64,000 bases of DNA from the NCBI RefSeq assembly GCF_000212735.1, contig NC_015510.1, positions 372,001 to 436,000 on the forward strand. The letters run 5' to 3'. Position numbers and translations under genes: made by a program. Shown here piece after piece: positions 1-64,000 of this stretch. The number at the start of each line of letters is the position of its first letter. Position 1 is the stretch's first letter. Below the pieces are notes generated by a model. That model did not search any database, was not told the DNA's origin, and was given only the letters and a program-made list of their open reading frames with translations. The stretch comes from Haliscomenobacter hydrossis DSM 1100 (GTDB lineage: Bacteria; Bacteroidota; Bacteroidia; Chitinophagales; Saprospiraceae).

Positions 1-1
1 T

Positions 2-3000
2 TCTGGCTGTATCAATGACGTGCTCGCCATGAGCGATTATTTTGAGGCATTTTGCAACAAAAACGAATTGGAACCCCATTTTACGTATTTGTTGGAACCT
101 TCGGGCAAAAATGAAGCCTCAAAATTGCAGAATCTGGATGTAAAATACACCCCGCCCACCCGTGCCAACATTATTGCAGCGACTCGCGCGATGTTCAAAC
201 AAGCCGATCCGCAGCGAGGAGACCACTGTCTGTTTTACTACAGTGGCCATGGTTCAAGCATGCGTGCACCCGCCGAGTTTTCGAACTATGAATCCAGTGG
301 TCGGCTACAAACCCTGGTGTGCATCGATAGCCGGGACCCAGGGAACCGCGACCTCATCGATAAAGAATTGGGTTATCTCTTTGCCGAAGGTTTGCACGAC
401 AAAGCATTCGATCCCGACCATGAAGAGCGCCCAGGTGTACATTTTTTATCCATCATGGATTGTTGTCATTCCGGTAACAATACCCGAGGCAAACAGCGCG
501 AGGCTTTTCCACGGATGGTAGCTGGTACCAACCAACTACAATCTGCCGCCGAGTTGGAAGGTTTTGATCCCAAAGGCAATGTTTTTTATGCCCCTTTGGT
601 CAATGGCAAAGTAGATCGCTACAATGGCCTGCACCATGCCCGATACATTGGTTTTTCAGCCTCACGCGACCATGAATCGGCTCATGAAATGGAGTTTGCA
701 GGGTCCATTGATGGAACAGCAAATGAGCTGGCAAGGCATGGCGTTTTTACCTGGAGCTTGTTGCGGGCACTTTACCGCAGCGGAGGCAGTTTAAGTTATG
801 CAGAAATCATGCGCCGGGTGGAAGCCGAAGTACGCAACCAGATTAGTCGGCAAATGCCACTCCTATGGACGCAAGGTGGAAGCCGTGATGATGAGTTGGG
901 CTTTTTCCGTGCTAAGCGGCTGGATGTAGCCGAGGGCAATTTTCAAATCTCCTTTAAAGAGGGTGTTTGGTCCATCAATGCGGGAGAATTGCATGGCATC
1001 ATGACTCCGGCTACTGCGGATCAAAAAAACCAATTTATCACGACCGATGGCAGTAAACGCATTATAGATGTAAAACAGGTGGAAACGAGCCGCAGCATCC
1101 TCGATGCCAGTCAATTTACGGAAGCAGACCGAGACAAACTGTTGAATGCCAGCATCCATCAATTGGCGTTCACGCCATACTTTGTTGGCTTTGACGCAGC
1201 CATGAGTGCTGATCAACGTGAACTGCTCAAGGGGGTTTTTAACAAGCTGTTCAAAGATAAGGCAGCCTTTGTAGCCATCTCAAAAAACAAAGGGCAAACA
1301 CCCCATTTTTTGATCAAAAGTGTAGTGGATAAAAAGAAACGAACATTTTACATCCTGACCAAGCCCGATAGCAACGTTCCTTTGTTTCCGCCACAAGTAT
1401 CTCCGCAAAATTTTGTTGTTGATTTGAATCAGGTGGGTAAGTGGCACCATACTTTGGCCATAGCCAATCCAGCCGTGGAAGAGCGATTCCGCAAAGACAT
1501 AGAAGTTGAAATTCAGGTGATGGAAGGCCAAAGAATGACGGAAGAAACGGCTAGTGAATTTGCACGCATTGACTGGAAAACCCGGCTGATCAACCCAGAT
1601 CAAGTAACCCTGCGCTATGTCAACAAAACCCCTCCGAAAATAAAGGTTAAAATCAGCAATACCAGCAATTTCGACAAATATTGGGTGGGCACCCTGTACC
1701 TGGATTCCCAATTTGGCATCGACCCCAGCTTCAGCCCGGTCACCCAAATTGGTGCCAATGCCGAATCCCCTTTTGTACAGCTGATGGCTCATGGTTTACC
1801 CATCATCAGCAATAATCTGGATACTGCTTACCACAAGTATGGGGTGACTGAAATCACCGATTACCTCTTGATCTTTGTCGCAGCCGACCCCTTTGATTTG
1901 CAATATTTCCGCCAACCGGGCATCCCTTTGGGCGAACCCAACCGAGATGCCGCCTCATTCTGGGATGAGGAAGAGCAAGAAGAACACCTGTGGTTTACCA
2001 TCAAAATCCCCATTCACATCCAAAGGCCCTTGCCTCCCGTACGCATTGGAAATAAAGTGGGTGCTGAAGTTACCCGTACGGCCAGCAATTTCCTAAGCAG
2101 TCCGCTACCCCTGAGTTTTGAAGCACCAAAAGGGTTTTCGGCCAGTGTGCAAATGACCAATCGTGCCCAGGTGGAACGCACGGTAGCGGTGTTACAAAAC
2201 ATGAAATCGGCCCAAACTACGCGTGAACTCCTGCCACCACCCAACTTGTGGGATGGCACCACTACGGATGCCAATACATTTTGTTATGGCATCGATGGTG
2301 ACCCGGATAGCCACTTGAGTGTGATGGAATTCAGCGATGTAGAGGGCTCTCTTAGCGCCGCTGCTCCACTCCAGCTTATCCTCAACGATCCGCTGCATGG
2401 CAAACTCAATGACCAGAGTCCACTGGACCTGGATGTACCCAGCTCGGAGCACGACTGCGTGATCCCCTTTGGTTACCAGGCTTTGGCGGACGGTGCAGGT
2501 TTTTACCTGCCCATGGGTTTTACGGATGAAGAGGGGAATATTCAAATTGCCCAACTGCCCTCGGAAAGCCCCGTTCAGGTGGGGATTAATCCCGAAGAAG
2601 GGGTTAGGAGTGTAAGTGGTTCGTTAAAATTGTTCTTCCAAAAAATCGTCTGGAGCCGCCTTTCGGGTCGTCACGAATACAACACGCTGGCACTACATCC
2701 GGGTATTGACGCGGAGCCGGTTTTGTACCGCAGTAAGGCTGCCCGCTACGGTGAAGCCCAGAGCAAAATCCAGGCTATTTTGCAGGAAGCTAAAAAAGTA
2801 TTGCTGCTGATTCACGGCATCACCGGAGATACGCTGGCCATGCGGGAAGCTTTTTTTGAACGCAGTGAAATGCACCAGAATTTTGATGCAATCCTCACTT
2901 TTGACTACGAAAATCTCCACACCGATATCGAAAAAACGGCCCAACAGCTGCAAAAAATGTTGCAGGATTGTGGCCTGGCTGCCGACAAACGCCTGACCGT

Positions 3001-3592: not shown

Positions 3593-3697
3593 GGGGCAGT
3601 CCCAATCAGTTCGAAGTTGTAGGCTTGACTGTTTTAGAAAAATTGTTTAAACTTGTGAATCCTTACACAAGTTAACGATTATGATCACCGCAAATTA

Positions 3698-4330: not shown

Positions 4331-4394
4331 AACCCCAAATGTGAGGGTATGCTTAATTCTACATTTATGCACCTTCTATGTTCAATCGAATAAA

Positions 4395-4434
4395 AAACTT
4401 GGGGATACCCGCCATAACAAGTACCCCCAAGTTT
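4395..4434. terminator. Possible bidirectional terminator between convergent genes
   Basis: AAACTTGGGG (4395-4404) and CCCCAAGTTT (4425-4434) are exact inverted repeats with a 20-base loop, in the gap between the convergent Uma2 and MCE genes. The A-run before the left arm gives a U-run for minus-strand transcripts. The loop is long for an intrinsic terminator, so confidence is moderate. Confidence 0.45.
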
Positions 4435-4467
4435 CGGATAGATCCAAAAATATAGTCACATTACTAA

Positions 4468-5496: not shown

Positions 5497-5545
5497 GAAA
5501 TTTTGAATTTTGAAAGCCGCAAAGGTAGAAAAAAGTTTAGTAAAC

Positions 5546-5668
5546 GGTTGAGAAAGTTGAGGAAGTTGAGGCTGCCGCGAGCGACATGCACACATTCACA
5601 CGCACACCTCACACTCAAACCCATTCTTGCGGTAGCCTCAACTGCTGAACTTCTGAACTCCTCAACTT
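5546..5668. repeat. Intergenic inverted repeat, GTTGAGG family
   Basis: The left arm at 5546-5579 is built of GTTGAG/AGTTGAGG units and ends GGCTGCCGC. The right arm at 5626-5668 is its imperfect complement (GCGGTAGCC, then CTCAACT and CTGAACTC units). The repeat fills the gap between the amidase stop and the MCE start and could form a long stem. A related GTTGAA/GTTGAG-unit repeat follows tonB at 49954-50043. Confidence 0.7.
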
Positions 5669-5669
5669 A

Positions 5670-7178: not shown

Positions 7179-7233
7179 GGTTCGTGGGTCTGTATGAAGT
7201 AGGGCTTAGTTTAATCGATTTTTGGTTTTGATT

Positions 7234-9975
7234 ATGAACGCAATGCAAAATAACCGAATTCATTTTTGGAAAGCAACAAGTGTGTGGGCTATTTTTGTTT
7301 TTTGCCTGGGGGTTGTACCTTTGGCGGCCCAGGATCCCTTCCCAAAACTGCCTGATAGTCTAAACGTTGCCGACACTGTTCCGCTTGCGTTCTCCGATAC
7401 CTTTCAGCTCCGTGCGCGTCCGAATACCATTCGTTTTTCCAACGACTCGCTTGATGCACCGGTTGAATACAACGCTGTGGATTCGATGGTATTGGACAAT
7501 ATTGCAAAAAAAATCTATCTATACGGTCAAGCTTTTGTAAAATATACCGACATCAGTCTGAAAGCTGAATTTATAGAGCTGGATTGGGCCAATAACATCG
7601 TTACTGCCGAATTGCGTGAAGATACAGTCACCGGAAAAGTGATTGGTGTACCCGAATTTACCGAGGGCGAACAGGTGTTTACGGCCAAACGCATGCGCTA
7701 CAATTTCAAGACCAAAAAAGGCATGGTTTACGATGTCCGCACCACACAAACCGATTTGTTTGTACATGGGTCGCGGATGAAACTCATCCAGGAAGAAAAA
7801 AAGGATACCTCCAAACCCGATAACATTTTATTTGGCCAAAAACTGCTGTTCACCACCTGTTCCGCGGAGCATCCTCACTTTGGTATCCGCAGCACCAAAC
7901 AAAAAATCATTCCGGATAAACTGGCCATTGTCGGGCCTTCCCAGATTGAAATTATGGGCGTACCCACGCCACTTTGGTTGCCCTTTGGTTTTTTTCCCTT
8001 GAAAAAAGGCCGGAGTACAGGCTTGTTGTTTCCCCGGGATTATGAATATTCCGAAAACTGGGGCTTTGGTTTACGCGACATCGGCTGGTATTTTCCGGTT
8101 GGGGATCACCTCAATCTCGCGCTGCGCAGCAATATTTATTTTAAAGGTACTTATGGTTTGTCTTTGCAAGCCGACTACCGCAAACGGTATAAATTTTCTT
8201 CGGGTTTAAACCTGCGTTATGACTCTCAGGTACAGGAAAATCGTTCTACGGGCAAGTATGGGCGCACCAATAGTTTTGGCTTCCAGTACAACCACAACCA
8301 GGAGGCGGCAGCCCACCCCAGTGCCAAGTTCAGCGCCAACATCAACATCCAGGGCAACCGCAACCAAAGTCGGGTATTCAACGATGCTTACAGTGTGTTG
8401 AACTCGCAGTTGTATTCCAACGCGAATTTTTCCAAAAACTGGCCAGGCAAACCTTATAGCCTCACCGCCTCTTTCAACCACAGCCAAAACCTGACCAACC
8501 GCAAGGCGACCATCAACTTCCCCAACGTACAATTCCAAACCCAAACCCTGTATCCTTTTAAGAAAAAAGTGAGCAACGACAAATGGTACGAGACCATCGC
8601 TTTTCGCTACGCCGGGGAAGCGCGCAATACCTTTGCCGCAACGGATACCACCCTTTTTACCAAAAAAATGTGGGAGGATGCGGTGGCGGGGGCTCGCCAC
8701 AACCTGGATGCCAACACCTCTTTTAAAGTATTGAAATACATCAACGTCAACCCCAACGTAACGTTCAGTGAAGTTTGGCAATTGAAATCCATCGCCAAAT
8801 CATTCGACTCTTCGCCAGTGATTACCTCCGATACGCTCGATGATCCTTTTGATCCTGACCCGCAAAAATCAATCATTCGCTACGACACGGTTTTTGGCAC
8901 AGTAAAAACAGACACCCTCTCGGGCTTTGCTGCTTATCGGCAATTTTCAGCGGGCATCAGTTTGAATACCCGGATATTTTTCACCCTCAAAACGGGCAAG
9001 CTCACGCCCCTGCGCGCAGTGCGCTGGGAAATGCGTCCCAACCTCTCGTTCAACTATTCACCCAACTATTTGAATCCGGCCTTGAATTATTTCGACAGCG
9101 TGCAGTTGGATTCGCGTTTCCCCTTGCGCAAACAAATCTACTCGCGCTTCGACAACATTGCCGTGTATGGTACACCCAGCATCAGCGGGCGGCAGATGGC
9201 CATTGGGTATAGCCTCAACAACATTTTCCAGGCCAAGGCTTATTCCAAGAAGGATTCTATGGAAAAGAAAATCAAACTCATCGACAACCTGGTGATTGGT
9301 GGGAACTACAACTATGCCGCCGACTCGCTGAAATGGAGCCAACTCAACGTCAGCACTACCGCGCGCTTTTTTAAAGGCATCACCACGATGGGCTTTTTTA
9401 TGAGTTTGGATCCTTATTTGGAAAATTCACAAGGGGTACGCTACAACCGCACGGTATGGCAACAAGGACGGATCATTCCACGGATGGAAACGGCGCGTTT
9501 TTCGTTTGTAACCGATTTGACGGTGCAAAAAATCCGTGAGATGTTTCAAGGCAGCAAAGAAGAGGTCGTTACCGACGTGCGCGAAAGGCCCCAGCAGCAG
9601 GGAAGTCAGAATCAGGATTTTTTGAGTTTGTTTGAAAACTTCAGCATCTCTCACAACCTCGATTTCTTTTGGGAGACGCGTGGCCAGGAAACCACTTTCC
9701 GGATGGGAACCAACTCGATCAACGCACAGGGAAATATTGAATTGACCAAAAACTGGGGCGTATCGGTAGGCAATATTGGCTATGACTTTGTGAACAAAGG
9801 GCTTTCCTACCCTGCCATTGGTTTTACCCGCGACCTGCATTGCTGGCAACTTTCGTTCAACTGGCAGCCCCAACGCGGAACCTACGTACTCAACATTCAG
9901 GTAAAACCGGGTACACTGGACTTTATCAAAATTCCTTATCAGAAGAACAATTTCGATACTCGGAGCGGGTTTTAG
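7234..9975 (+). CDS. LptD-like LPS assembly outer-membrane protein
   Basis: A 913-residue protein of the Bacteroidota LptD/OstA type, expected to insert lipopolysaccharide into the outer leaflet of the outer membrane. It begins with a signal peptide (FWKATSVWAIFVFCLGVVPLAAQ). An OstA/LptA-like beta domain follows at about residues 60-190 (AVDSMVLDN, IYLYGQAFVKYTD, KAEFIELDWANN, FTAKRMRYNFKTKKG). The remainder is a large beta-barrel with many alternating aromatic strands, including the LptD-like segment PTPLWLPFGFFPL. The open frame begins at TTG 7222, but ATG 7234 (MNAMQNN) is the better start; ATG 7243 is also possible. The TAG stop is the first part of an inverted repeat. It is divergent from the amidase and convergent with the GLPGLI gene. 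Family assignment is firm; the substrate is inferred. Confidence 0.88.
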   Translation: MNAMQNNRIHFWKATSVWAIFVFCLGVVPLAAQDPFPKLPDSLNVADTVPLAFSDTFQLRARPNTIRFSNDSLDAPVEYNAVDSMVLDNIAKKIYLYGQAFVKYTDISLKAEFIELDWANNIVTAELREDTVTGKVIGVPEFTEGEQVFTAKRMRYNFKTKKGMVYDVRTTQTDLFVHGSRMKLIQEEKKDTSKPDNILFGQKLLFTTCSAEHPHFGIRSTKQKIIPDKLAIVGPSQIEIMGVPTPLWLPFGFFPLKKGRSTGLLFPRDYEYSENWGFGLRDIGWYFPVGDHLNLALRSNIYFKGTYGLSLQADYRKRYKFSSGLNLRYDSQVQENRSTGKYGRTNSFGFQYNHNQEAAAHPSAKFSANINIQGNRNQSRVFNDAYSVLNSQLYSNANFSKNWPGKPYSLTASFNHSQNLTNRKATINFPNVQFQTQTLYPFKKKVSNDKWYETIAFRYAGEARNTFAATDTTLFTKKMWEDAVAGARHNLDANTSFKVLKYINVNPNVTFSEVWQLKSIAKSFDSSPVITSDTLDDPFDPDPQKSIIRYDTVFGTVKTDTLSGFAAYRQFSAGISLNTRIFFTLKTGKLTPLRAVRWEMRPNLSFNYSPNYLNPALNYFDSVQLDSRFPLRKQIYSRFDNIAVYGTPSISGRQMAIGYSLNNIFQAKAYSKKDSMEKKIKLIDNLVIGGNYNYAADSLKWSQLNVSTTARFFKGITTMGFFMSLDPYLENSQGVRYNRTVWQQGRIIPRMETARFSFVTDLTVQKIREMFQGSKEEVVTDVRERPQQQGSQNQDFLSLFENFSISHNLDFFWETRGQETTFRMGTNSINAQGNIELTKNWGVSVGNIGYDFVNKGLSYPAIGFTRDLHCWQLSFNWQPQRGTYVLNIQVKPGTLDFIKIPYQKNNFDTRSGF

Positions 9976-10087
9976 GGTTCGAGGGTTCGAAGTTCGGGAG
10001 TTCGAAGTTCGGGAGTTCGAAGCTCGAGGGTATACACAAGTTGTGTGTCGAACCCCCGAACGTCGAACCCCCGAACCCTAAAACCCT
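9970..10087. repeat. Inverted repeat, GGTTCGA family, between convergent lptD-like and GLPGLI genes
   Basis: The left arm (about 9970-10030) is a chain of GGTTCGA and AGTTCGGG units. After a short loop, the right arm (10048-10087) is a chain of TCGAACCC and CCGAAC units. The outermost pairs, GGTTTTAGGGTTCG against CGAACCCTAAAACC, include the TAG stop of the lptD-like gene. The same family recurs at 36193-36267 and 41650-41727. It may serve as a bidirectional terminator here, although there is no U-tract. Confidence 0.8.
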
Positions 10088-10091
10088 CTTC

Positions 10092-10868: not shown

Positions 10869-11186
10869 GGGCAATTTCTTTTTTTTGCAAAACTACGCCG
10901 GAATCACCCAGTCCCCAAGTTAACGTTCCTTGATTTAAGGTTAATAATGGTTAAAGGGGGGTGCGCCGCCTTCTGGATTGCACTAACTTTGTGGAAAATT
11001 CAGTGCAAAGAGCAGTTTGTTGCTGTTCTGGGTTGCATCTAACAACATTAGACTTGTTGTAACGGGAGACTGCTTGTCTCAAAAATGGTCTTTTTTTCCT
11101 GATTTTTGATCTCAAGCGCTCCCGTTACAACAAGTCTATTCAAATCTACTGATTTGTACAAGAACAACACCTTATATCGAGCTTTG
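10869..11186. other. Divergent intergenic region with a perfect 20-base inverted repeat
   Basis: About 318 bases between the GLPGLI gene and the histidine kinase. It holds a perfect inverted repeat, TAGACTTGTTGTAACGGGAG (11049-11068) against CTCCCGTTACAACAAGTCTA (11119-11138), with a smaller GAGAC/GTCTC hairpin at 11066-11080 inside the loop. The reading frame of the kinase is open through the right arm but is unlikely to be translated there. I see no convincing promoter box. Confidence 0.65.
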
Positions 11187-12650: not shown

Positions 12651-12900
12651 TTACCGCAGAGTAAAGGAGGATACGCGGAGTTTCGCGGAGTTTATTAGGC
12701 ATAAGGAGTTTGCCACCTACGGTGGCTGGAGTCTGTGCTCCAAATAAGTTTTGCCTAAAATCAAGCCAATTATAACGGAACTTGATAAAGGTAAGGACAC
12801 ACCAAGCTTCAGCAAGTGCGACCTCCCTGGCCTCTCCGCACCGCAGGTGCCCTAAAAAACTCCGCGAAACTCCGCGTATCCTCCTTTTACTCCGCGGTAA
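12651..12900. repeat. 250-base element with ~43-base terminal inverted repeats between kinase and regulator genes
   Basis: This fills nearly all of the 310-base gap 12633-12942. The left arm (12651-12693) and the right arm (12854-12900) are complementary except for one mismatch and one or two inserted bases. They share CGGAGTTTCGCGGAG and GGAGGATACGCGGAG. The ~160-base centre has no open reading frame of note and a smaller GGAGTCTGTGCTCC hairpin. It resembles a MITE-like element or a very long hairpin. Its arms face inward with TTACCGC at both ends. Confidence 0.8.
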
Positions 12901-13638: not shown

Positions 13639-13994
13639 AATAGCAATACATTCAATGCATCCAATTATAATATAATTTATTTTTTAAATAAATAGTCACT
13701 GTTACAAAACCCTCAACAATAAATTTGCGACAAACAGCGCTAACCTGTAAATCACATCAAATAAAAAAAAACGGCTCTTTTGTATCCTAGTTTAACGCGC
13801 TTGACTTATCTTCGCAAGGAATTTCTTTTTGACGACCTTCGATGTGACAATAAATAAACTATGGTTGCTGTTCCGAGACGACCAGCATTGATTTTTTAGC
13901 AACCATTACATCCAACTTGATTCGCAACACCTTCAAGCTTTAATCGGCTTGATTTATGTCGATATTAACGCTATTTTTTATAAATCGGTATCTC
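13639..13994. promoter_or_regulatory. Upstream region of the giant surface-protein gene
   Basis: An AT-rich gap of 317-356 bases (depending on the start chosen) without a gene. A weak match to the Bacteroidota promoter is TTTG at 13779-13782 with TATCTTCG at 13807-13814. The spacing of 24 is longer than the usual 19-21, so this is only a candidate. No terminator hairpin for the preceding regulator was recognised. Confidence 0.3.
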
Positions 13995-16900
13995 ATGAAA
14001 AGACCCTTACACCTGAGCACTTTTGCTTTTGGGGATTCGTCTTCCGCATTCTTTCCTACCAAAATGGGCAAACCTATTTATCTTTCTCAAAAGATAATGT
14101 GGGTCATGCTAGGGTTAATCTCCCTGGCGGGTAGCCTGAGTGGACAATCCATCAACACCGGAAACGTAACGACTAGCCCCTTTTGTCCGGGCGATGCCAT
14201 TTCGATTCCATTCACAGTGGATACGTCAGGTAGGAGCTTCGGGGCTGCTGGTGGACCTGCAGGGGGGCCAACCCTTATTACCTATCAAGCTCAGCTGAGC
14301 AATACTGCTGGCAGTTTTGGTTCTGGTACGACTAACTTGGCCTCAATACAAAGCTTATCAGGTTCCAATAAGCAAGCCATTACCGGGCTAACCATCAACA
14401 CCACTATTCCTACCGGCTTGCCTTACAGCAATACGTATCGGGTAAGGGTAATAAAAACTGCTCCGGGAACGGTCAATCAAACTCTTATTGGAACTAACAT
14501 TACGATCAATCCGAACTCTAATGGCAACCTGACCATCAGAGCGGCCGGGTTTACCAATCCTCCACCGGCTGGAACCATTTGTCAGGGTGCCGATTATGAT
14601 TTACAATTCACCAATAACAATACGTTCAACCCAGGCAACCTCTTTATCGCCCAGTTGGACAACAACATCAACTTCACCTCTCCGGTGAACATTGGTGTTT
14701 TGGCCAGTACCGCTTCGAGTGGAACCATCAAAGTGGTGATTCCCTTTACGGAATCAGGTACGGGCTATTATATAAGGTACATCGCGACCAATTCTGTTCC
14801 GGGAGGTTTTGAGAGCTGTCCGTCTGGTGCTTACACCATACCGGCAGTTCGTCCGTTTACCGACCCAGGCAATGACCTGGAGTGTACTGGCGGGAATGCT
14901 TCTTTCAACGTCAGTGGCGGTGCCGATTCTTACCAATGGCAAAAAGTGTGCTCTCCACCTTTCAGCAATATCACGATGGGTGTGGGTGGTTCAGGAGTCA
15001 CTTTCGACATTGCCAAAGATGGCGTTGATGTCTTTGCGGCCACACCTACTGAACTTTCGATCTCTCGCAATAGTGGTGCCACTTTTACAGAAAGCAAATT
15101 GGTTGGTCAAACGGTCAATAAGGTATTTGTAGTTGGCAACACCGTTTATGCCGCCACCAATATGGGTATTTTTATATCCAATGACAATGGCGTAAACTTT
15201 GGCCCCCCGGTCAACACTTCGGGGCCTAACTTTTTGCCCCAAAACAACATTACGGCGCTTGCGGTTTCCGCAGGGGTGGTTTATGCAGGTACTGGTTCAG
15301 CGGGTTTAGCCATCGGTACTCCCGGGAGTGCCTTTGCGGTGCGCACCACGGCCAACGGTTTGGGTTCTAACGTCATTTTTGACGTATTTGTCGATGGTGC
15401 TTATGTCTATGTAGGTACCCAGGGTGGTCTTTCGGTTTCTTCCGATGGAGGGGCCAGTTTTGTCAATTATACTACTGCTGACGGCTTAGGCAGCAATATT
15501 GTATATAGTGTCTTTCAACGCGACAATATCGTTTATGCAGGTACCGATTTTGGCTTTGCATATGCTACCTCTTATAATAACACCCCTGATTTGGTTTTCA
15601 CCAACATTCTGGGTGGTTTAGGTTCTCCCATTGTACGGGACATTTTTGTGTCTGGCAGCAGAATTTATGCAGCGACTACGGGTGGGTTGTCTGTTGCCAA
15701 TGTGGGCAGCACGGCATTCACCACCATCACGGTGGGTTTAGTCAATCCCAACGTTTATGGTGTTAAGGAAGATGCAGGTACCGTTTACCTGGCTACCCTG
15801 GGTGGGGTAGCGTTTACAACCTTTACCACCATGAACGTGGGTGGAGGAGGAACCAATTACAACTTTACAGTCACCCCTGCAGATTCCTGGTGTCGTTTCC
15901 AGGTCGTGGTGAACAGAGGAGGTTGTACCCTGATCTCTAACCAGGTGCGGGTTGCCGACATTCCACCAAACATCACCGCAGTAGGCACAGGTCCCGCTGG
16001 AGTAGGTGACGGGCCTACCACTTGTGGTGGAGTCAATGGAGAAATCAAAATTAGTGGTTTGGTACCGTTGACCAAATACCGCCTAGTGTACACGGGCACC
16101 AACGGTTTCACCGATTCTGGAGATACCATTACGGCCAATGCCCAAGGTGAATTCCTCAATACTTTGTTCCCTGCGGGTTCTTACGACCTCAGTGTACAAA
16201 GTTTGGTGAACCCTCCGGTACCCGCGTGTTTCTCCAATACGGTCAATGTTATTTTAAATGATCCGCTACCGCCCAGCGCAGTGACGGCCAATTTGCTTGA
16301 TGCGAGCATCTGTGCTGGTGAAAACATCACCGTCAACCTGCCCTCAGCTTTGGCCAATACCCCGGGGGTCAGTGTGGAGCAATACAAGTGGTATACTGAC
16401 TTATTAGGGACAACCCCGGCTAACCCAGCAACCACCACGGCTCTTACTTATTCCCCAGCGGCTTCTCCAGCCGTTGGCACCGGATCCATTTTCGTGCGCA
16501 AACGCGATGTGGTGACCCTTTGTGATGGGCCAATGTTGACGCTTAACTATGCGGTCAATCCTAGACCGAGCATCAGCCACGCCAAAACCGATCCTTCGAG
16601 CGCGGTGGCAACTGATGGAAGCATCACGATTAGCCTGGGGGCTAATCCGGGTACGGCCCCGTTCACGCTCCAATATACTACACCCGCTAATGTGTTAGTC
16701 ACGGTAAACAATGCAACGTTTCCACAGGTGATTGCGGGTTTGGGTATTGGCAATTATACCATGTTTTCGGTGACCAACAGCGAAGGTTGCCAATCCAACA
16801 TCATTGCCTCCTGCCCTTTGCTTCCACCTCCTCCTCCAGATGTAATTGGTGGCAAGGTTTTGCAAACGGTAGTCTGTGAGATCCCCGGAACCGCCGGTGG

Positions 16901-33094: not shown

Positions 33095-33114
33095 TTTCTT
33101 CCATGATAGAGTTT

Positions 33115-33152
33115 AAAAAAGCCATTCAGCAGCATTGCTGAATGGCTTTTTT
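33115..33152 (+). terminator. Rho-independent terminator after the tail-fibre-like gene
   Basis: AGCCATTCAGCA and TGCTGAATGGCT form a perfect 12-base-pair stem with a short loop, preceded by A6 and followed by T6. It is a clean intrinsic terminator and could work in both directions. Confidence 0.9.
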
Positions 33153-33369
33153 AAATTAATGGACAAAAACTTATTCCAAACAAGCTGAGTTCCCCCACAT
33201 TATATTCCGCTTTTCATTTTTTTTCCAAATCAAACTATATTTTCAGTACGCGTTGAAAGTACAAAAACCTGATAATCAGTATTTTGATTTTTTTATTTAG
33301 ACTTCGTACAAATAAAATCTTTACAAACCTTTACTTTATAATACTGTTACTAATTTCGAAATGCTTTGA

Positions 33370-33880: not shown

Positions 33881-33905
33881 AGCTCATAACTCATAACTCA
33901 TAACT
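33881..33905 (+). repeat. CTCATAA tandem tract between nuoA and nuoB
   Basis: Three copies of CTCATAA in tandem, ending AACT, lie seven bases before the nuoB start. Only one arm of what would be an inverted pair is present. Such a tract just ahead of a start codon may affect translation, but this is not shown. Confidence 0.6.
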
Positions 33906-36191: not shown

Positions 36192-36192
36192 A

Positions 36193-36267
36193 AGGGTTCG
36201 AGGGTTCGGAGTTCAAGGGTTCGGGGGTTGTCCTCCGAACCCTCGAACTCCAAACCTTCGAACCCCA
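36193..36267. repeat. Inverted repeat, GGTTCGA family, between nuoD and nuoE
   Basis: The left arm (36193-36229) is made of GGGTTCGAGG, GGAGTTC and GGGTTCGGGGG units. The right arm (36231-36267), reading CCTCCGAACCCTCGAACTCC and CGAACCCC, is its near complement. Almost no loop separates the arms. It occupies the whole nuoD-nuoE gap and would form a long imperfect stem in the operon mRNA. Confidence 0.8.
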
Positions 36268-36278
36268 AATATAAAAAT

Positions 36279-36788: not shown

Positions 36789-38143
36789 GTAGGTTGAAAA
36801 TATTGACCGAGCACATCGATAAGCCAGAGATTACCGGGATCGAAGGATACATCAAACACGGAGGTTACCGTGCGGTAGAAAAAGCACTGAAAAAAATGCA
36901 GCCGGACGAAGTCACTGAAGAGGTGAAAAAATCTGGCTTGCGTGGCCGGGGTGGCGCTGGCTTCCCTACCGGGATGAAATGGAGTTTTATCTTTAAAGGC
37001 AATGACAAACCGCGCTACCTCCTCTGCAACGCGGATGAATCGGAACCGGGTACCTTTAAAGACCGGCTTTTGATGGAAAAAATTCCCCACCTGTTGATCG
37101 AGGGAATGATTGCTTCCAGTTTTGCACTGGGGGTAAAAACAGCCTACATCTACATCCGTGGCGAGTACATGTACATCCTGCACATTTTGCAAAAAGCCAT
37201 TGATGAGGCTTATGCCAAAGGATACTTGGGTGAAAACATCCTGGGGACGACCTATTCGCTAGATTTGCACGTACACCCCGGTGGTGGTGCTTATATCTGT
37301 GGCGAGGAAACTGCCCTGATTGAATCGCTGGAAGGCAAACGGGGGAATCCGAGAATCAAACCTCCTTTCCCGGCAGTAGAAGGATTGTGGGGTTGCCCAA
37401 CCATCGTCAACAACGTTGAAACCATATGTAAGGTCCCCTTCATCATCAATGAAGGCGGAGAAACTTACGCCAATATCGGCATTGGAGCCAGTACGGGTAC
37501 AAAGTTGATCTCGGCTTGTGGCAACATCAACAAGCCTGGCGTGTATGAAATTGAGTTGGGTGTTCCCGTAGAGGAGTTCATCTATTCTGACGAATATTGC
37601 GGGGGGATCAAAGGAGGCAAACAACTCAAGGCCTTGGTGCCCGGAGGATCGTCTGTCCCTATTTTACCCAATCGGCTCATTACCAAAACCGCCAAGGGGG
37701 AACCCCGCCTGATGAGCTACGAATCGCTGTCCGATGGAGGTTTCCCCACGGGTAGTATGTTGGGTTCCGGAGGATTCATCGTTTTTGATGAAGACCAGTG
37801 CATCGTGCGCAATACCTGGAATTTTTCCCGTTTTTACCACCACGAATCCTGCGGCCAATGTAGCCCTTGCCGCGAAGGTACGGGCTGGATGGAGAAAATT
37901 CTGCACCGGATGGAATACGGCCACGGCAGAATGGAAGACATCGATCTGCTGTGGGATGTACAAAGAAAAATTGAAGGAAACACCATTTGCCCGTTTGGGG
38001 ACGCTTCGGCCTGGCCCGTTGCTGCCGCGATTCGCCATTTCCGCGATGAGTTCGAGTGGCACGTGCTTCATCCCGCAGAGGCTACCCGACGCAATTATGG
38101 GATGGGGCGCTCCGCTGAACCGATTGAACAGGTAACCGCGTAG
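36785..38143 (+). CDS. nuoF: NADH-quinone oxidoreductase subunit F
   Basis: A 452-residue 51-kDa-type subunit, the NADH- and FMN-binding entry point of complex I. Motifs: the NADH/FMN loop GLRGRGGAGFPTGMKW, CNADESEPGTFKDR, the FMN region VHPGGGAYICGEETALIESLEGKRGNPRIKPPFPA, and the [4Fe-4S] N3 ligands SCGQCSPCREGT plus the later Cys in NTICPFGDA. It is of full length. The start overlaps the nuoE stop by four bases. The TAG stop (38141-38143) is part of the left arm of a perfect 27-base inverted repeat. Together with NuoE and NuoG it forms the NADH-oxidising module. Confidence 0.96.
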   Translation: MSRLKILTEHIDKPEITGIEGYIKHGGYRAVEKALKKMQPDEVTEEVKKSGLRGRGGAGFPTGMKWSFIFKGNDKPRYLLCNADESEPGTFKDRLLMEKIPHLLIEGMIASSFALGVKTAYIYIRGEYMYILHILQKAIDEAYAKGYLGENILGTTYSLDLHVHPGGGAYICGEETALIESLEGKRGNPRIKPPFPAVEGLWGCPTIVNNVETICKVPFIINEGGETYANIGIGASTGTKLISACGNINKPGVYEIELGVPVEEFIYSDEYCGGIKGGKQLKALVPGGSSVPILPNRLITKTAKGEPRLMSYESLSDGGFPTGSMLGSGGFIVFDEDQCIVRNTWNFSRFYHHESCGQCSPCREGTGWMEKILHRMEYGHGRMEDIDLLWDVQRKIEGNTICPFGDASAWPVAAAIRHFRDEFEWHVLHPAEATRRNYGMGRSAEPIEQVTA

Positions 38144-38200
38144 GGGCAACCCTGTGTGGTTGCCCTCTGGTAAGGGCAACCACACAGGGTTGCCCCTACG
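38139..38200. repeat. Perfect 27-base inverted repeat (GTAGGGGCAACC family) after nuoF
   Basis: The arms 38139-38165 and 38174-38200 are exact complements, with an eight-base loop. The left arm reads CGTAGGGGCAACCCTGTGTG onward and contains the nuoF TAG stop. There is no T-run after the stem, so termination is not implied. It lies inside the nuo operon. Confidence 0.85.
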
Positions 38201-38207
38201 ATCTTGC

Positions 38208-38294
38208 CAACCCACGGGAATCCCACGATTTAAATCGTGGGTTGCATCCGTGGGAGGCCATATAAAAACATAGCCCACGAGTTTAGTCGTGGGG
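38208..38294. repeat. CCCACGA-family palindrome cluster before nuoG
   Basis: Two palindromes lie side by side: CCCACGATTTAAATCGTGGG (38222-38241) and CCCACGAGTTTAGTCGTGGG (38274-38293). Extra half sites are CCCACGGG before the first and CCGTGGG after it. The motif matches the copy inside the amidase gene. The second palindrome ends about 15 bases before the nuoG start. Confidence 0.8.
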
Positions 38295-38309: not shown

Positions 38310-39260
38310 ATGCCAAAGGTAACCATAGACAACATAACCATCGACGTGCCACCCGGTACCACCATCCTGAATGCAGCCAGGATGATTGGAGAAAACGTGC
38401 CACCCGCAATGTGCTACTATTCCAAGTTGAAAGGTAGCGGTGGAAAATGCCGGGTATGTTTGGTAAAAGTGACCAAAACATCGGAACAAAACCCAAGGGG
38501 CATGCCCAAGTTGGTTGCGTCGTGTGTCACCCAAATCGCCGATGGAATGGTGGTGGAAAACATTACCTCTCCAGAAGTAGTGGAGGCACGTAAAGGGGTT
38601 GTAGAATTGTTGTTGATCAATCACCCGCTCGATTGCCCGGTGTGTGATCAGGCTGGTGAATGCCATTTGCAGGATTTGTCCTACGAACACGGGGCTGCCA
38701 CTACCCGCTACGATTTTGGACGCCGAACTTTCAACAAAATTGACATCGGCCCATACATTCAATTGCACATGACCCGCTGCATCCTGTGTTACCGGTGTGT
38801 GTACACTGCTGATCAGCTCACCGATGGGCGGGTGCATGGCATCATCAACCGTGGCGATGCGGCGGAAATCAGCACGTACATCGAAAACATCATCGACAAC
38901 GACTTTTCCGGCAACGTCATCGATGTTTGCCCCGTAGGTGCATTGACCGATCGTACTTTCCGCTTTAAAAGTCGGGTTTGGTTTACCAAGCCCATGAATG
39001 CGCACCGCAATTGTGATAAGTGCAGTGGTAAGGTTACCTTGTGGTTCCAGGGCGAAGAAGTCCTGCGGGTTACGGGTAGAAAAGACCAATACGGTGAAGT
39101 AGAAGAGTTCATTTGCAACACCTGCCGTTTTGAAACGAAGAAAAAATCGGATTGGGTGGTTGAAGGGCATCGTCGAATTGATACACATTCGGTCATTGCC
39201 CAAAATCACTTGCCTTACGAATTGGATGTGGTACATCCACAAATTGAACAAGCGCAATGA
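38310..39260 (+). CDS. nuoG: NADH-quinone oxidoreductase subunit G, short form without molybdopterin-like domain
   Basis: A 316-residue NuoG that keeps only the N-terminal iron-sulphur part. The [2Fe-2S] ligands are in PPAMCYYSKLKGSGGKCRVC and the later SCVTQ. The His-Cys cluster motif is HPLDCPVCDQAGECHLQD. The [4Fe-4S] binding segments are TRCILCYRCV and VIDVCPVGALTD. A further Cys set follows in HRNCDKCSGKV and CNTCRFE. The usual 75-kDa subunit has 650-900 residues with a large molybdopterin-oxidoreductase-like domain, which is absent here without any frameshift or remnant. Short NuoG forms are known in Bacteroidota. ATG 38310 (MPKVTIDN) is preferred over GTG 38289, which lies in a repeat. 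The gene overlaps nuoH by four bases. Confidence 0.93.
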   Translation: MPKVTIDNITIDVPPGTTILNAARMIGENVPPAMCYYSKLKGSGGKCRVCLVKVTKTSEQNPRGMPKLVASCVTQIADGMVVENITSPEVVEARKGVVELLLINHPLDCPVCDQAGECHLQDLSYEHGAATTRYDFGRRTFNKIDIGPYIQLHMTRCILCYRCVYTADQLTDGRVHGIINRGDAAEISTYIENIIDNDFSGNVIDVCPVGALTDRTFRFKSRVWFTKPMNAHRNCDKCSGKVTLWFQGEEVLRVTGRKDQYGEVEEFICNTCRFETKKKSDWVVEGHRRIDTHSVIAQNHLPYELDVVHPQIEQAQ

Positions 39261-41649: not shown

Positions 41650-41727
41650 CGTTCGAGGGTTCGGGAGTTCGAAGGTTCGAAGGTTTGAACCCCCGAACTT
41701 TCGAACCACTGAACCTTCGAACCCTTC
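41650..41727. repeat. Inverted repeat, GGTTCGA family, between nuoK and nuoL
   Basis: The left arm (41650-41687) runs CGTTCGAGGGTTCGGGAG and further GTTCGAAGG units. The right arm (41688-41727) reads AACCCCCGAACTTTCGAACC and GAACCTTCGAACCC. No loop separates the arms. It is the third member of the family in this window and fills the nuoK-nuoL gap. Confidence 0.8.
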
Positions 41728-46570: not shown

Positions 46571-46607
46571 AAAAAGGGCAGAATGTTGACATTCTGCCCT
46601 TTTTTTA
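46571..46607 (+). terminator. Rho-independent terminator of the nuo operon
   Basis: AGGGCAGAATG and CATTCTGCCCT form a perfect 11-base-pair stem around a TTGA loop, preceded by A5 and followed by T6. It closes the complex I operon. Confidence 0.92.
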
Positions 46608-49089: not shown

Positions 49090-49953
49090 ATGAATACGAA
49101 CGATGCATCCAAATCTGGGTTGTTGGTCGGTGACATCATGAAGGCGGATTTGGATGATCTGATCTTTCAGTATCGGAACAAAGAGTACGGAGCTTATCAG
49201 CTGCGCAAAGCATACTATAAACGTATGACCCGCGCTACGATTCTGGCCGTGCTTTTGATGGCTTTCGTAGCCTTACTTCCGAGCATTTTATCAGCCATCC
49301 GAAACAGTGTAGCTGACGACGAGACGTTGAACGTTGAAGTAACGCTGTCTGAGCCGCCATCAGTTGATCCCAAGCAGGAGCCGCCGCCACCACCGCCACC
49401 GGTGGAGCCACCACCTGCTCGCCCAACCATTGCTTTTACCATTCCGGTGGTAAAAAAGGATGAAGAAGTAGTGGAAGAAGTTCCACCACCTACTCAAGAA
49501 GAAATGAAAGAAGTGGAAATCAGTACCAAGACCCAAGAAGGTAGCGACGATGGCGTTGTTGCAGGGCTTGGTGATGAGCCAATCGAAGAGGCACCACCAG
49601 AAATCGTTAAAGAGGTAGAACCACCCAAACCTACCCAAGAGGTATTTAAGGTGGTAGAACAAATGCCTTCTTTTCCTGATGGCCAGGCCGCTTTGCTCCG
49701 CTTTTTAGCCCAGAACATCGAGTATCCTACCATTGCGAAGGAAAACGGTGTAGAAGGGATGGTCGTTGTGCAATTCGTGGTAGAACGAGATGGTTCTATT
49801 GCTGCAGCCAACGTCGTGAAAGGTATTGGAGCGGGTTGCGACGAAGAAGCCTTGCGTGTAGTGCGCATGATGCCTAAGTGGCAGCCAGGTAAACAACGCG
49901 GTCAACCTGTTCGTGTGCAGTTTAACCTGCCAATTCGCTTTAAACTCGAATAA
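49090..49953 (+). CDS. tonB: TonB family energy transducer
   Basis: A 287-residue TonB protein linking the ExbB/ExbD motor to outer-membrane receptors. The N-terminal cytoplasmic part carries the Bacteroidota motif LDDLIFQYRNKEYGAYQLRKAYYKRM, followed by the transmembrane helix (TILAVLLMAFVALLPSIL). A Pro-rich periplasmic spacer (PPPPPPPVEPPPARP, then EEVPPPTQEE) spans the periplasm. The C-terminal domain (residues ~200-287) shows FPDGQAALLRFLAQNIEYPTIAKENGVEGMVVVQFVVERDGSI and the closing MMPKWQPGKQRGQPVRVQFNLPIRFKLE. Its natural clients here would include receptors like the SusC protein at the right end. An inverted repeat follows its stop. Confidence 0.94.
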   Translation: MNTNDASKSGLLVGDIMKADLDDLIFQYRNKEYGAYQLRKAYYKRMTRATILAVLLMAFVALLPSILSAIRNSVADDETLNVEVTLSEPPSVDPKQEPPPPPPPVEPPPARPTIAFTIPVVKKDEEVVEEVPPPTQEEMKEVEISTKTQEGSDDGVVAGLGDEPIEEAPPEIVKEVEPPKPTQEVFKVVEQMPSFPDGQAALLRFLAQNIEYPTIAKENGVEGMVVVQFVVERDGSIAAANVVKGIGAGCDEEALRVVRMMPKWQPGKQRGQPVRVQFNLPIRFKLE

Positions 49954-50043
49954 AAGTTGAAGAGTTGAAAAGTTGAAGAGTTGAAAAGACACACAATTAT
50001 CGGGTGTTCAACTTTTCAACTTTTCAACTCTAAACTTTTCAAC
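49954..50043. repeat. Inverted repeat, GTTGAA family, after tonB
   Basis: The left arm (49954-49987) is AGTTGAAGAG, TTGAAAAG and AGTTGAAGAG units. The right arm (50006-50043) is TTCAACTTTTCAAC, TTTTCAACTC and AAACTTTTCAAC. It fills the gap between tonB and the small membrane-protein gene. It is related in style to the repeat at 5546-5668. Confidence 0.78.
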
Positions 50044-50055
50044 TATTTTGCCCAA

Positions 50056-52915: not shown

Positions 52916-52918
52916 CCT

Positions 52919-52988
52919 GCCCCGTGCCAATAAAAAAGGGCTTTCCGATCCGACGCGATCAGAAAGCCCTTTTTTATTGGCGCGGGGC
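52919..52988. terminator. Bidirectional terminator between the TPR gene and transketolase
   Basis: A long stem in the convergent gap: GCCCCG...CCAATAAAAAAGGGCTTTC pairs with GAAAGCCCTTTTTTATTGG...CGGGGC. The stem carries an A-run in the left arm and a T-run in the right arm, so it can end transcription from both sides. Confidence 0.92.
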
Positions 52989-52992
52989 AAAC

Positions 52993-55023: not shown

Positions 55024-55072
55024 AACGATAATTGATAGCAGTTTGTGTGTTAATTGTTTGTTTAGAATTTGC

Positions 55073-55080: not shown

Positions 55081-55129
55081 AGGAACGTGTTTGAAAAAAT
55101 GGGAATTGCATCTCTAATTTGCGTCAAAC

Positions 55130-56666: not shown

Positions 56667-56675
56667 AAGCATAAC
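56667..56675 (+). repeat. Target-site duplication, right copy
   Basis: AAGCATAAC, identical to 55540-55548, directly abuts the right end of the insertion sequence. The identity of the two copies supports a recent insertion. Confidence 0.92.
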
Positions 56676-57786: not shown

Positions 57787-57825
57787 TTTTTTAACATTGA
57801 TTTGTTTACCAAGGAGTTACCTCTA

Positions 57826-61380: not shown

Positions 61381-61937
61381 TTGTAAATCTTTTACAGGAG
61401 CATCTTGTGTGGCATTCTGCTTAGTTGTAGAACCCCCGACCCCTAAAGGGGAGTACAATGTACGTTAGTTCAATATTTTACCTTTTTTTGAACAAAAAGG
61501 GAGCATTTTTTACCTTTCGCAAATGTACTCCCCTTTAGGGGTCGGGGGTTCTACAACTCAAGTACGCTCACGCGCCCAACACACAAATTTGGAATCCTCT
61601 ATTTAAACCGCCGCAAGATAAATGCCTTTCCGATTATTCCGACCAACCACAAAAAATTTCTTATTTATTTTGAAAAAGATTTTTTTGCGCCAATTTCCGA
61701 TGCCCAAGGCACTATTGATTGTGGCAAAGCATTGATTTCTCTAGCTTTTTGCCATTCCGTCAAGTTTTTGGCAAAACATAGGAAAATCACATTTTTAATA
61801 ATTTTTTAACCAAAAACACCAAATTTTATTTCAAAACCCTATTTTTGATAAATCTTTCTTAAAAAACGCTTAGCGACAAAAGGGTAATCTGGTTTGAATT
61901 ACATTCTTATTTAACCAATCTTAAATTCTGCTAGTTC
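61381..61937. other. Divergent intergenic region upstream of the SusC-like and FG-GAP genes
   Basis: 557 bases. The left part holds the 34-base perfect inverted repeat (61424-61557). The right part (61560-61937) is strongly A/T-rich, with many T and A runs, and should hold promoters for both genes. I could not pick a convincing TAnnTTTG box. No open reading frame is supported here. Confidence 0.5.
61424..61557. repeat. 134-base element with perfect 34-base terminal inverted repeats
   Basis: The arm 61424-61457 (begins GTTGTAGAACCCCCGACCCC) is matched without error by 61524-61557, with a 66-base A/T-rich centre between. It contains no gene. Exact arms suggest either a recent MITE-like insertion or selection for the hairpin. 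It lies 44 bases upstream of the FG-GAP lipoprotein start. Confidence 0.85.
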
Positions 61938-64000
61938 ATGAAAAACAGCTATTCAGCTCTACTTCAGAGGCTTGTCTTGTTCGTGCTGTTGTGCTTGCCG
62001 GCCATCGCAGCCATCGGACAACGGACCGTCAGTGGCAAAATCACCGACACCGACAGAGAGGGTCTTCCTGGAGTAAACGTACTTCTCAAAGGTACCGCCG
62101 CAGGTACCGTTACCGAATTGGACGGATCGTTCTCTTTGGAAGTTCCAAGTACAGGAGGATCCCTGGTGGTCAGCTACGTGGGTTACAGAACCATTGAAGT
62201 GGCTTTGGACGCACAAAGTTCGTACAACATCACCCTCGAAGAGGATGTATCTACTTTGAAAGAATTGATTGTAACGGGGTATACCGTAGATAGCCGCCGG
62301 GAAGCTACCGGTGCAGTATCAACGGTTAAAGCCAAAGACTTGTCACTGGTTCCATCTGGTAACGTAGAACAGCAATTGGCTGGGCGGGTTGCCGGGGTAA
62401 CGGTGATCACCAACGGTGCACCAGGCACAAACAGCCAAATCCGCGTACGTGGTTTTGGCTCCTTCGGAGGCAACGAACCACTCTACATCGTAGATGGGGT
62501 TCCGGTTGGTTCAACCGACTTCCTCAACCCTGGCGATATCGAGTCTACTACCGTTTTGAAAGACGCGGCAGCGGCTTCAATCTACGGTGCTCGTGCCGCC
62601 AACGGGGTAATCGTTTACACAACGAGGAAAGGTTCCAAAAATGCCCGCAAGTTGAGCGTAATCTACGATGGTTTGTATGGTTTCACCGACCCAGGCAATG
62701 GTCAGGAAATGTTAAATCCTCAGGATTTTGCCACCTGGACAGCTAAAGGTTATACCAACTCAGGTATCCTGTTCGACCACCCCCAATTTGGTAAAATTGG
62801 TTTGGGTGGCAGCGCTCCGGTGATTCCTGACTATATCAACGTGGGGGGCAGATCAGGTGTAGTAGGCTCGGTGGATCTGAATGCGGAAAAAGCGAAGTAC
62901 AATGTTGATCCTAGTCGTGGTGCCGTTTATCAAGTGGTACGTGCCAATAAAGAAGGTACCAACTGGTTTGATGAAATCACTAGGGTAGCGCCAATCACCC
63001 GTCATACTTTGGGTTTTTCGGGTGGCAGTGAAAATAGCCGTTTTTACTTCGGCTTGAGCACCCAACGACAGGCAGGGATTTTGAAGTACAACGAATTTAA
63101 TCGCCACGCCTTCCGTGCCAACAGCGAATTCAACCTGAGCAAAAAACTGCGTATTGGCGAAAACTTGCAGTTTACTTACCGCCAGGTACTCGCTCCAGGT
63201 ATTTCCGGAGATATTGGTCTTGCCGATGACGAAAATGAAATTCTGCAAGCTTTCCGGATGCCTTCCATCATTCCAGTTTACGACGAATTTGGTGGATATG
63301 GCGGTACAGCGGCCAAGGGGTTCAACAACCCTCGTAACCCAGTAGCTACACTGGATGGAGGAAAAGACAACCGCAGCCACAACATTGGTTTGTTTGGTAA
63401 CCTGTATGCCGAATACGACCTGGTTCCCGGGTTGACCCTACGCACCAGTTTGGGCGGTCAGTATGGCAGCTTTTACAACTGGGGCTATGGCCGCCTACAA
63501 TACGAAAACTCCGAGAACAACTCTGCATTTAGTTACAGTGAAGGAGGTGGATTCGGATTTAACTGGGTGGTTACCAACACTGCCAACTACAAGAAGAAAT
63601 TCGGAATACATGGGGTAGATGTTTTGGTAGGTCAGGAAGCCATCAAGACTGGTATTAGCCGCAACATCAATGCGAATGGTATCAACCCTTTCTCCACCGA
63701 TCCCGACTTCGTTACCATCTCCACACTAGGTAGCAGAAACCCACCCAATAGTGGGCTGAGCACACCTGTCACTTTCGCTTCTTACTTCGGTCGGGTAGCC
63801 TACAACATGAACGACAAGTACATTGTCACTGCCCTCGTGCGTAGGGATGGGTCTTCTCGTTTTGGTGAAAACAACCGTTATGGAGTATTCCCTGCCTTCT
63901 CGGCTGCCTGGCGGATTTCCTCCGAGAAATTTATGGAAAACCTGAAGTGGATCGACGATTTGAAGATTCGCGGTGGTTACGGGATCATGGGTAACTCCAA
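61938..64000 (+). CDS. SusC/RagA family TonB-linked outer-membrane receptor, 3' partial
   Basis: The frame begins at ATG 61938 and runs off the right edge after 687 codons; full members have about 950-1,100 residues. A signal peptide (LVLFVLLCLPAIAAIGQ) is followed by a carboxypeptidase-regulatory-like domain (VSGKITDTDREGLPGVNVLLKGT, TELDGSFSLEVP, LVVSYVGYRTIEV). A TonB-box-like ELIVTGYTV comes next. The plug domain has GNVEQQLAGRVAGVTVI, IRVRGFGSFGGNEPLYIVDGVPV and the SusC signature DAAAASIYGARAANGVIVYTT. The beginning of the beta-barrel follows. It imports large nutrients, usually with a SusD lipoprotein that would lie to the right of the window. Its energy would come from TonB/ExbB/ExbD. 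Substrate unknown. Confidence 0.95.
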   Translation, partial: MKNSYSALLQRLVLFVLLCLPAIAAIGQRTVSGKITDTDREGLPGVNVLLKGTAAGTVTELDGSFSLEVPSTGGSLVVSYVGYRTIEVALDAQSSYNITLEEDVSTLKELIVTGYTVDSRREATGAVSTVKAKDLSLVPSGNVEQQLAGRVAGVTVITNGAPGTNSQIRVRGFGSFGGNEPLYIVDGVPVGSTDFLNPGDIESTTVLKDAAAASIYGARAANGVIVYTTRKGSKNARKLSVIYDGLYGFTDPGNGQEMLNPQDFATWTAKGYTNSGILFDHPQFGKIGLGGSAPVIPDYINVGGRSGVVGSVDLNAEKAKYNVDPSRGAVYQVVRANKEGTNWFDEITRVAPITRHTLGFSGGSENSRFYFGLSTQRQAGILKYNEFNRHAFRANSEFNLSKKLRIGENLQFTYRQVLAPGISGDIGLADDENEILQAFRMPSIIPVYDEFGGYGGTAAKGFNNPRNPVATLDGGKDNRSHNIGLFGNLYAEYDLVPGLTLRTSLGGQYGSFYNWGYGRLQYENSENNSAFSYSEGGGFGFNWVVTNTANYKKKFGIHGVDVLVGQEAIKTGISRNINANGINPFSTDPDFVTISTLGSRNPPNSGLSTPVTFASYFGRVAYNMNDKYIVTALVRRDGSSRFGENNRYGVFPAFSAAWRISSEKFMENLKWIDDLKIRGGYGIMGNS

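Follow-up and report, generated by a model that had tools for sequence, protein, structure and literature searches.

Why do so many of the gaps between genes in one bacterial chromosome hold a hairpin? The question is raised by a stretch of 64,000 nucleotides (the window; positions C1:372001-436000) from Haliscomenobacter hydrossis DSM 1100, a sheath-forming member of the Saprospiraceae, phylum Bacteroidota (PMC3156403). The genome comprises 8,771,651 bases, 8,371,686 of them in the main contig, C1. A first-pass annotation of the window had listed ten intervals that seemed to hold hairpin or repetitive elements of unrelated sequence, and had seen in them one genome-wide process acting at gene ends. 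Our analysis bears this out in part and points to a picture in which many of the gene-boundary stems are dispersed copies of hairpin elements built from short words, and in which two families of small proteins, S23 (TIGR02436/PF05635) and GxxExxY (TIGR04256/PF13366), would be the partners of individual word families. The arrangement would resemble that of repetitive extragenic palindromic (REP) sequences and their hairpin-forming doublets (REPINs) with the REP-associated tyrosine transposases (RAYTs). We give this reading a probability of about 60%.

Nine of the ten intervals contain inverted repeats (IRs). The tenth, in the nuoA/nuoB gap, has a direct repeat only, and CTCATAACTCATAACT is confined to it (33881-33905, two overlapping matches) within the 1.256 Mb of chromosome, about 14% of the genome, covered by our IR census. 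This census bears out a genome-wide pattern: IRs with arms of at least 16, 20, 30 and 40 nt number 277, 223, 132 and 40, against 1, 1, 0 and 0 in one single order-3 Markov simulation. The genome has 290 occurrences of GGGTTCGARGGTTCG and none of its reversed control. The stems do sit between genes, as had been claimed, with 214 of the 223 IRs with arms of at least 20 nt overlapping called genes by less than 10% (the calls come from a home-made caller whose start positions are uncertain). The elements fall into several families and are to that extent unrelated in sequence, but the word GTTCG is common to those at 10.0, 36.2 and 41.7 kb, and the words at 5.5 kb (GTTGAG) and 50.0 kb (GTTGAA) are similar.

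Many of the stems are word chains whose polarity is fixed. Fifteen word patterns, picked after inspection of the repeat list, capture 129 of the 277 IRs with arms of at least 16 nt; outside them are further word-like families, fixed-sequence families and singletons. In a recount by orientation with 13 patterns, 121 word clusters are inward, none outward, 28 one-armed and four of other arrangement, in agreement with the earlier description, in which the two arms of many stems carry their words in opposite directions. The GGAGTT pattern, for which the fifteen-pattern count had 13, was inadequate in this recount. The fifteen-pattern count flagged one repeat (70989) as having the opposite polarity; we take this to be an accidental match to a word of a different family. 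Five clusters of mixed order are also present. Copying of a fixed sequence was considered for the word chains and rejected, because word order and many of the loops vary.

What accompanies the words? A scan for CACAGATT chains, using one genome per species for 84,980 species, found 27 stretches, 26 of them in records named as Bacteroidota. One of these runs directly into a GxxExxY gene, and the H. hydrossis genome was therefore searched for GxxExxY (PF13366), with S23, the four-helix-bundle family (PF05635), added as a guess. Word-chain arms flank all eight S23 genes and all six full GxxExxY genes, with 13 words for these 14 genes of about 115-130 codons; three weak partial PF13366 matches in long reading frames (L203-L205) were left out of the count. 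The score of the IR across the gene is 21-52.5 for 13 of the 14, including every S23 gene. Among 313 control genes, six score at least 20, namely L198, L210, the Y1 gene L148, two genes between two listed elements and one after one, and the highest score among 182 mismatched flank pairs is 20.5. Each word has one or two such genes, and its clusters scale to about 28-244 genome-wide for 11 of the 13 patterns; two patterns gave none. Seven of the 14 proteins were scanned against Pfam and match PF05635 or PF13366, none of them Y1 transposase.

Flanking repeats are also found at Y1 (RAYT-like) genes of H. hydrossis, whose across-gene scores are 59, 54.5, 49.5, 30, 24, 11 and 10.5. A Y1/RAYT account of all the stem families was rejected, as Y1 genes adjoin only some of them. 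The idea of one process holds for the genome-wide extent of the pattern but probably not for its cause, because at least three gene classes (Y1/RAYT-like, S23 and GxxExxY) accompany different stem families.

The association of words with genes is seen in H. hydrossis, in the wider Bacteroidota and on certain plasmids from other phyla. A match is carried by 157 (S23) and 101 (GxxExxY) of 198 sampled Bacteroidota genomes. Of the 30 best-scoring loci per family, which are not a random sample, 21 S23 and 26 GxxExxY loci have flank scores above the 95% level of 48 neighbouring control genes (Mann-Whitney p 2.4e-8 and 1.9e-9), and six and seven have scores above the 99% level. Of 34 plasmid matches, 12 were read (five of eight GxxExxY, seven of 26 S23), and nine of these, including seven of the ten outside Bacteroidota, score at least 19; the plasmids belong to Bacteroides, Bernardetia, Gemmatirosa (both genes), Nostoc (two), Anabaena, Calothrix brevissima and Azospirillum. 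The genes that flank some loci (nrdB and nrdA, cas6 and cas4, fabD and fabG) suggest insertion into operons. On plasmid pANA02 of Anabaena sp. 90 (L280), an S23 gene with GGTGACAGG words stands between cas6 and cas4, and on a plasmid of Sphingomonas parapaucimobilis (L277), a GxxExxY gene with one visible arm stands between fabD and fabG, 2 nt before fabG. A table in PMC5524665 places a four-helix-bundle gene between those for guanylate kinase and nicotinate (nicotinamide) nucleotide adenylyltransferase in both genomes of Flavobacterium columnare.

Does a given word go with a given protein clade? It does so in a few cases. Three of the 27 CACAGATT stretches, from Bacteroides sp. 224, Aquiflexum and a metagenome-assembled genome labelled Saprospira, have a GxxExxY gene at a distance of 67-160 nt from the chain, and for all three proteins the best match in H. 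hydrossis is L197, the CACAGATT-flanked paralogue, at 60, 79 and 79% identity; for the two at 79%, the other H. hydrossis paralogues reach only 33-63%. Similarly, the closest outside relative of the S23 protein L210 among 298 genomes (L287, 63% identity) is flanked by the same GTTGATGA words. Words of the type GTTKA average 5.8 per locus at L210-like S23 genes against 1.7 at other S23 genes (p 0.01), and at least six are present at 10 of 24 loci against none of 30. This comparison used 24 of the 29 loci L287-L315, those shorter than 3200 nt or with no open frame being left out. CRCRRA words average 6.1 at GxxExxY loci against 0.6-0.8 at the two S23 sets (p 8e-11 and 4e-10), the corresponding counts of loci being 15 of 30 for GxxExxY against 0 of 24 and 1 of 30.

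Could the stems instead be ordinary intrinsic terminators, or stabilisers of mRNA 3' ends, kept by selection with the words incidental? The gaps that hold IRs are biased to 3' ends (58 convergent, 118 co-directional and 17 divergent, against 43, 315 and 127 IR-free gaps of at least 60 nt), and in long co-directional gaps 47 of 66 IRs are closer to the stop than to the start. The predicted RNA folds are very stable, each of six window IRs being more so than 200 of 200 shuffles (z -4.6 to -10.5). This explanation would also suit the gaps at 5.5, 10.0 and 50.0 kb, which are still occupied in relatives, with changed sequence. Against it, only 29 of 244 word-chain 3' sides have at least five T in eight, most chains thus being without the U-tract of an intrinsic terminator; three stems lie within a co-directional series of nuo genes (the nuoD/nuoE, nuoF/nuoG and nuoK/nuoL gaps), where co-transcription is assumed; some of the relatives' gaps measure just 5-6 nt; and the word-bearing genes belong to two particular families. 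Few U-tracts, stems in nuo gaps and gaps empty or refilled in relatives led us to reject terminators, which the first-pass annotation had named as a possible refutation of its view, as the main account for most word chains. We regard selection for termination or stabilisation as quite unlikely to explain the stems, while mRNA stabilisation is possible as their side effect. Once the element is subtracted, longer gaps are not consistently more often occupied: for co-directional gaps the share is 3/44 at 0-10 nt, 5/34 at 10-20, 21/65 at 20-40 and 20/109 at 160-320.

The orthologous gaps, whose comparison had been proposed earlier, turn over among four same-genus genomes (G001-G004, about 64-83% nucleotide identity to H. 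hydrossis in aligned pieces; G003 and G004 are draft assemblies), and in some relatives they are empty or filled with other words. The nuoD/nuoE gap, 89 nt long in H. hydrossis, measures 5 nt in G001 and G002 and holds other sequence in G003 and G004. The 11.1-kb gap has 80-82 nt in G002 and G004 against 195 nt, and the 61.4-kb gap 67-68 nt against 260 nt. At 12.7 kb the gap is 6 nt in G004 and has GTTGAA words instead in G002; at 50.0 kb, G004 has GTTGAA words in a different order. The exact GGGTTCGARGGTTCG pattern is found in none of the four genomes and once each in two of 55 further relatives. The gaps at 5.5, 10.0, 12.7 and 50.0 kb are occupied in more than one species by other words or another word order, as if the gaps had been re-used or their words replaced. 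At 10.0 kb the occupant in G002 and G004 is a chain of GGATTTCGG words; this ATTTCGG/GGATTTCGG family is seen at G002:C250 and G004:C276 and went unnoticed in H. hydrossis, where no dedicated search for it was made.

How might such elements arise and spread? Each family is defined by one word of 6-11 nt, whose imperfect repeats make up the left arm and whose reverse complements make up the right. For 13 families some copy or cluster contains or directly flanks an S23 or GxxExxY gene, and many copies are gene-less. The protein would recognise stems built from its family's word and be needed in trans to spread or maintain the gene-less copies, much as RAYTs are thought to do for REPs; we infer that S23 and GxxExxY proteins move the hairpins. 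Insertions would survive mainly between genes, where a transcribed stem may be tolerated, and the arms may be kept matched by selection for the stem or by quasipalindrome correction, a process associated with replication. In GxxExxY several residues are conserved: D68, E78, K80 and Q92 (trimmed L197 numbering) are present in 37-38 of 38 sequences, or 36-38 with Y96 included. To judge from the alignment, they form a PD-(D/E)XK-type motif, with a QxxxY that we take to be RecB-family-like. A sequence search yielded no solved structure for the family. For S23, the host or another partner enzyme would need to cut, because a Pfam scan of four S23 proteins found no nuclease domain; we know of no cleavage chemistry for this family.

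Could the word chains have a purely mutational origin, by slippage and fold-back replication, the two genes being passengers that home into stems? The two arms of an element share word order above chance in six of eight families (mean rank 0.30 against 0.5, 105 elements; the matching is not significant for GTTGAT and GTTGAG), long word arrays exist, and G003 is abundant in GTTGAA words with no cognate gene detected, all of which speaks for such an origin. It does not readily account for the recurrence of words at many loci, a few of them in different genera but beside the same protein clade, nor for a polarity so strictly inward, and without a protein it would leave unexplained why the two gene families have different words in their surroundings. 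We consider it unlikely. Nor do we favour the idea that the stems are DNA-uptake-type signals paired at gene ends. Like DNA uptake sequences, the words are short, strongly over-represented and paired inward between genes, but this one genome has at least a dozen different words, mostly in multi-copy chains and many of them accompanied by a small S23 or GxxExxY gene, which makes this explanation highly improbable.

Several observations weigh against a partnership of mobile stems and proteins. No transposition event was seen, nor a target duplication or an exact junction; where empty and filled gaps were compared, the flanks are too divergent for element junctions to be defined. Association does not show causation, and the genes could home into existing stems, which fits much of the evidence. 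In H. hydrossis, L200 has an IR on one side only and an across-gene score of 13; within the roughly 14% of the genome covered, no gene partner was found for the 11.1-kb, 61.4-kb, F13-F15 and GTAGGGGC families, and no gene-less copy for GTGTGGG (L212). With flanks of 500 nt and a threshold of 20, only eight of 30 S23 and six of 30 GxxExxY loci of the phylum sample pass, against one and two of 870 mismatched pairs. Three of the 12 plasmid loci, in Sphingomonas (one arm visible by eye), Treponema and Calothrix PCC 7716, score below 12. The next relative of L210 (L288, 52% identity) has no inverted words and is one of five among 16 L210-like loci inspected, from the 29 in L287-L315, that score 13 or less. 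The enrichment in GTTKA words is modest, and the Mantel correlations (r 0.35 and 0.48) are partly driven by near-identical pairs. In the drafts G003 and G004, with 153 and seven GTTGAA-triple matches (reversed controls four and two), no L206-like S23 gene was found, so that the words persist, and perhaps spread, without their presumed partner, or the partner was missed. Finally, the AlphaFold2 model of GxxExxY is poor (mean confidence, pLDDT, 46.8), and the fold assignment therefore rests on Pfam and the motif.

A bolder version of the partnership seems to us tentative, and rather less probable than the partnership itself. S23/four-helix-bundle and GxxExxY proteins would be two new classes of hairpin mobiliser, distinct from transposases of known kind, each reading the word grammar of its own stems and copying gene-less stems into gene boundaries. 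GTTKA-type words would serve one S23 clade and CRCRRA-type words GxxExxY, and Avd-like S23 proteins may act with a reverse transcriptase. The S23 protein L206 matches bAvd in Pfam (E 3e-10, just over the cut-off) and Avd in NCBIfam (3e-11, below the cut-off), a weak likeness to this retroelement accessory family that may point to a link to reverse transcription. The intervening sequences (IVSs) of 23S rRNA and the short tandemly repeated repetitive (STRR) sequences of cyanobacteria would then be cases of the S23 class.

Stem repeats, STRR sequences, IVS elements and REP-RAYT pairs are already known, and the H. hydrossis elements share something with each. As in REP/REPIN-RAYT systems, there are many short, gene-less intergenic palindromes and a dedicated gene with copies of the repeat on its flanks, and the H. 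hydrossis Y1 genes likewise have flanking repeats (four of seven score at least 30). The partners of the word chains, in contrast, belong to PF05635 or PF13366, Y1 genes going only with the Y1-linked families, and the stems are chains of words rather than the GTAG-tagged single palindromes described for REPs in the available text of PMC3733652. The 23S rRNA IVS, according to the part of PMC4990558 available, has a 28-bp terminal stem cleaved by RNase III in vitro and has long been the subject of mobility hypotheses. It resembles our elements in that the S23 gene lies in the loop of inverted arms, as do the eight of H. hydrossis, the window copies being gene-less; on the Azospirillum plasmid a word-chain S23 copy (L285) sits within a 23S rRNA gene. 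Unlike the IVS, the H. hydrossis elements lie mostly between protein genes, with many gene-less copies and several word families in one genome.

Cyanobacterial STRR sequences are tandem words, usually of 7 bp, that form hairpins, for example between hupS and hupL (PMC2670836), and no gene partner is described for them in the text of that source accessible to us. The earlier comparison with filamentous cyanobacteria was right in kind, since four of five Nostocales-plasmid S23 genes read lie in heptamer-like word chains, but words and unit lengths differ and the host belongs to the Bacteroidota. The TAACTGA repeats of Beggiatoaceae, as far as the consulted part of PMC4679880 goes, are also short intergenic words with patchy hosts, some Bacteroidetes included, yet they are direct repeats mostly upstream of starts, with one inverted case. 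Bacterial miniature inverted-repeat transposable elements are likewise small, non-coding and inverted at their ends; our elements differ from them in their word-chain arms, in a partner gene that is not a recognised transposase, and in that no target duplication has been established.

The elements of the window, together with terminator-like hairpins and the word-associated genes, are collected in Table 1.

Table 1. Stems and repeats of the window, with the word-flanked S23 and GxxExxY genes of H. hydrossis
Feature	Position in window	Strand	Remarks
GTTGAG word-chain IR, nested CTGCCGCGAG arm	5528..5667 (IR 5564-5643)	.	word also around S23 gene L208
GTTCGA word-chain IR between convergent genes	9964..10089	.	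word also around S23 gene L209
20-nt perfect IR TAGACTTGTTGTAACGGGAG	11049..11138	.	three arms in each orientation within 1.256 Mb
ACCGCAGAGT...CGCGGAGTTT word-chain IR, 151-nt loop	12651..12900 (IR 12663-12887)	.	similar repeats either side of GxxExxY gene L198
Terminator-like hairpin, A-run left arm and T-run right arm	33112..33155	.	for contrast
CTCATAACT direct repeat, nuoA/nuoB gap	33881..33905	+	not an inverted repeat
GTTCGA word-chain hairpin, nuoD/nuoE gap	36192..36268 (IR 36194-36265)	.	
GTAGGGGC-type IR, nuoF/nuoG gap	38139..38200	.	
CCCACGA...TCGTGGG repeats	38207..38294	.	related repeats (by eye) flank Y1/RAYT-like gene L144
GTTCGA word-chain hairpin, nuoK/nuoL gap	41650..41725 (IR 41667-41722)	.	
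Terminator-like hairpin	46571..46604	.	similar hairpin kept in G002 and G004
GTTGAA word-chain IR	49954..50045 (IR 49952-50031)	.	word also around S23 gene L206
Terminator-like hairpin between convergent genes	52918..52989	.	stem with changed sequence kept in G002 and G004
35-nt perfect IR with AGAACCCCCGACCCCTAAAGGGGAGTACA inside	61423..61558	.	repeated in genome
GxxExxY gene L197			word CACAGATT
GxxExxY gene L198			word GGAGTT
GxxExxY gene L199			word CACGACG
GxxExxY gene L200			word CACAAAGG, one side only
GxxExxY gene L201			word ACGGAT
GxxExxY gene L202			word CACAAAGGCGC
S23 gene L206			word GTTGAA
S23 gene L207			word CTATCAGC
S23 gene L208			word GTTGAG
S23 gene L209			word GTTCGG
S23 gene L210			word GTTGAT
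S23 gene L211			word GTGAAAA
S23 gene L212			word GTGTGGG
S23 gene L213			word TGACGAA

One window element starts with CGTAGGGGC, which may be compared with the GTAG tag of REPs and REPINs. An Rfam search of the window found no RNA family, and hence places none of its stems in a 23S rRNA gene; a tRNA search of the window found none. The nuo genes are named by NCBIfam, nuoG by a match under the curated cut-offs: its frame (38310-39257, 316 codons) covers only model positions 1-260 of 606 and is perhaps a short NuoG. A single open reading frame of 4919 codons occupies positions 13956-28715. Within the genus, an S23 gene with GTGTGGG-like words stands between tRNA-Val and tRNA-Pro in three species (L212, L318 and L320), an insertion that splits a pair of tRNA genes, indicating that S23 gene copies can be stably inherited, and L207 and L317 have words in common and downstream sequence that is alike by eye.

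What, finally, do these associations mean for the two protein families? S23 and GxxExxY are common families whose role is unknown, and the partial texts retrieved in our literature search contain no description of either as the partner of intergenic word chains. The consistent setting in which their genes occur suggests for both a role that can be tested. If the partnership is true, it links the 23S rRNA intervening sequence, the hairpin repeats of cyanobacteria and intergenic repeats that have so far gone unexplained, and it suggests that operons can be invaded repeatedly at their gene boundaries without the loss of genes.

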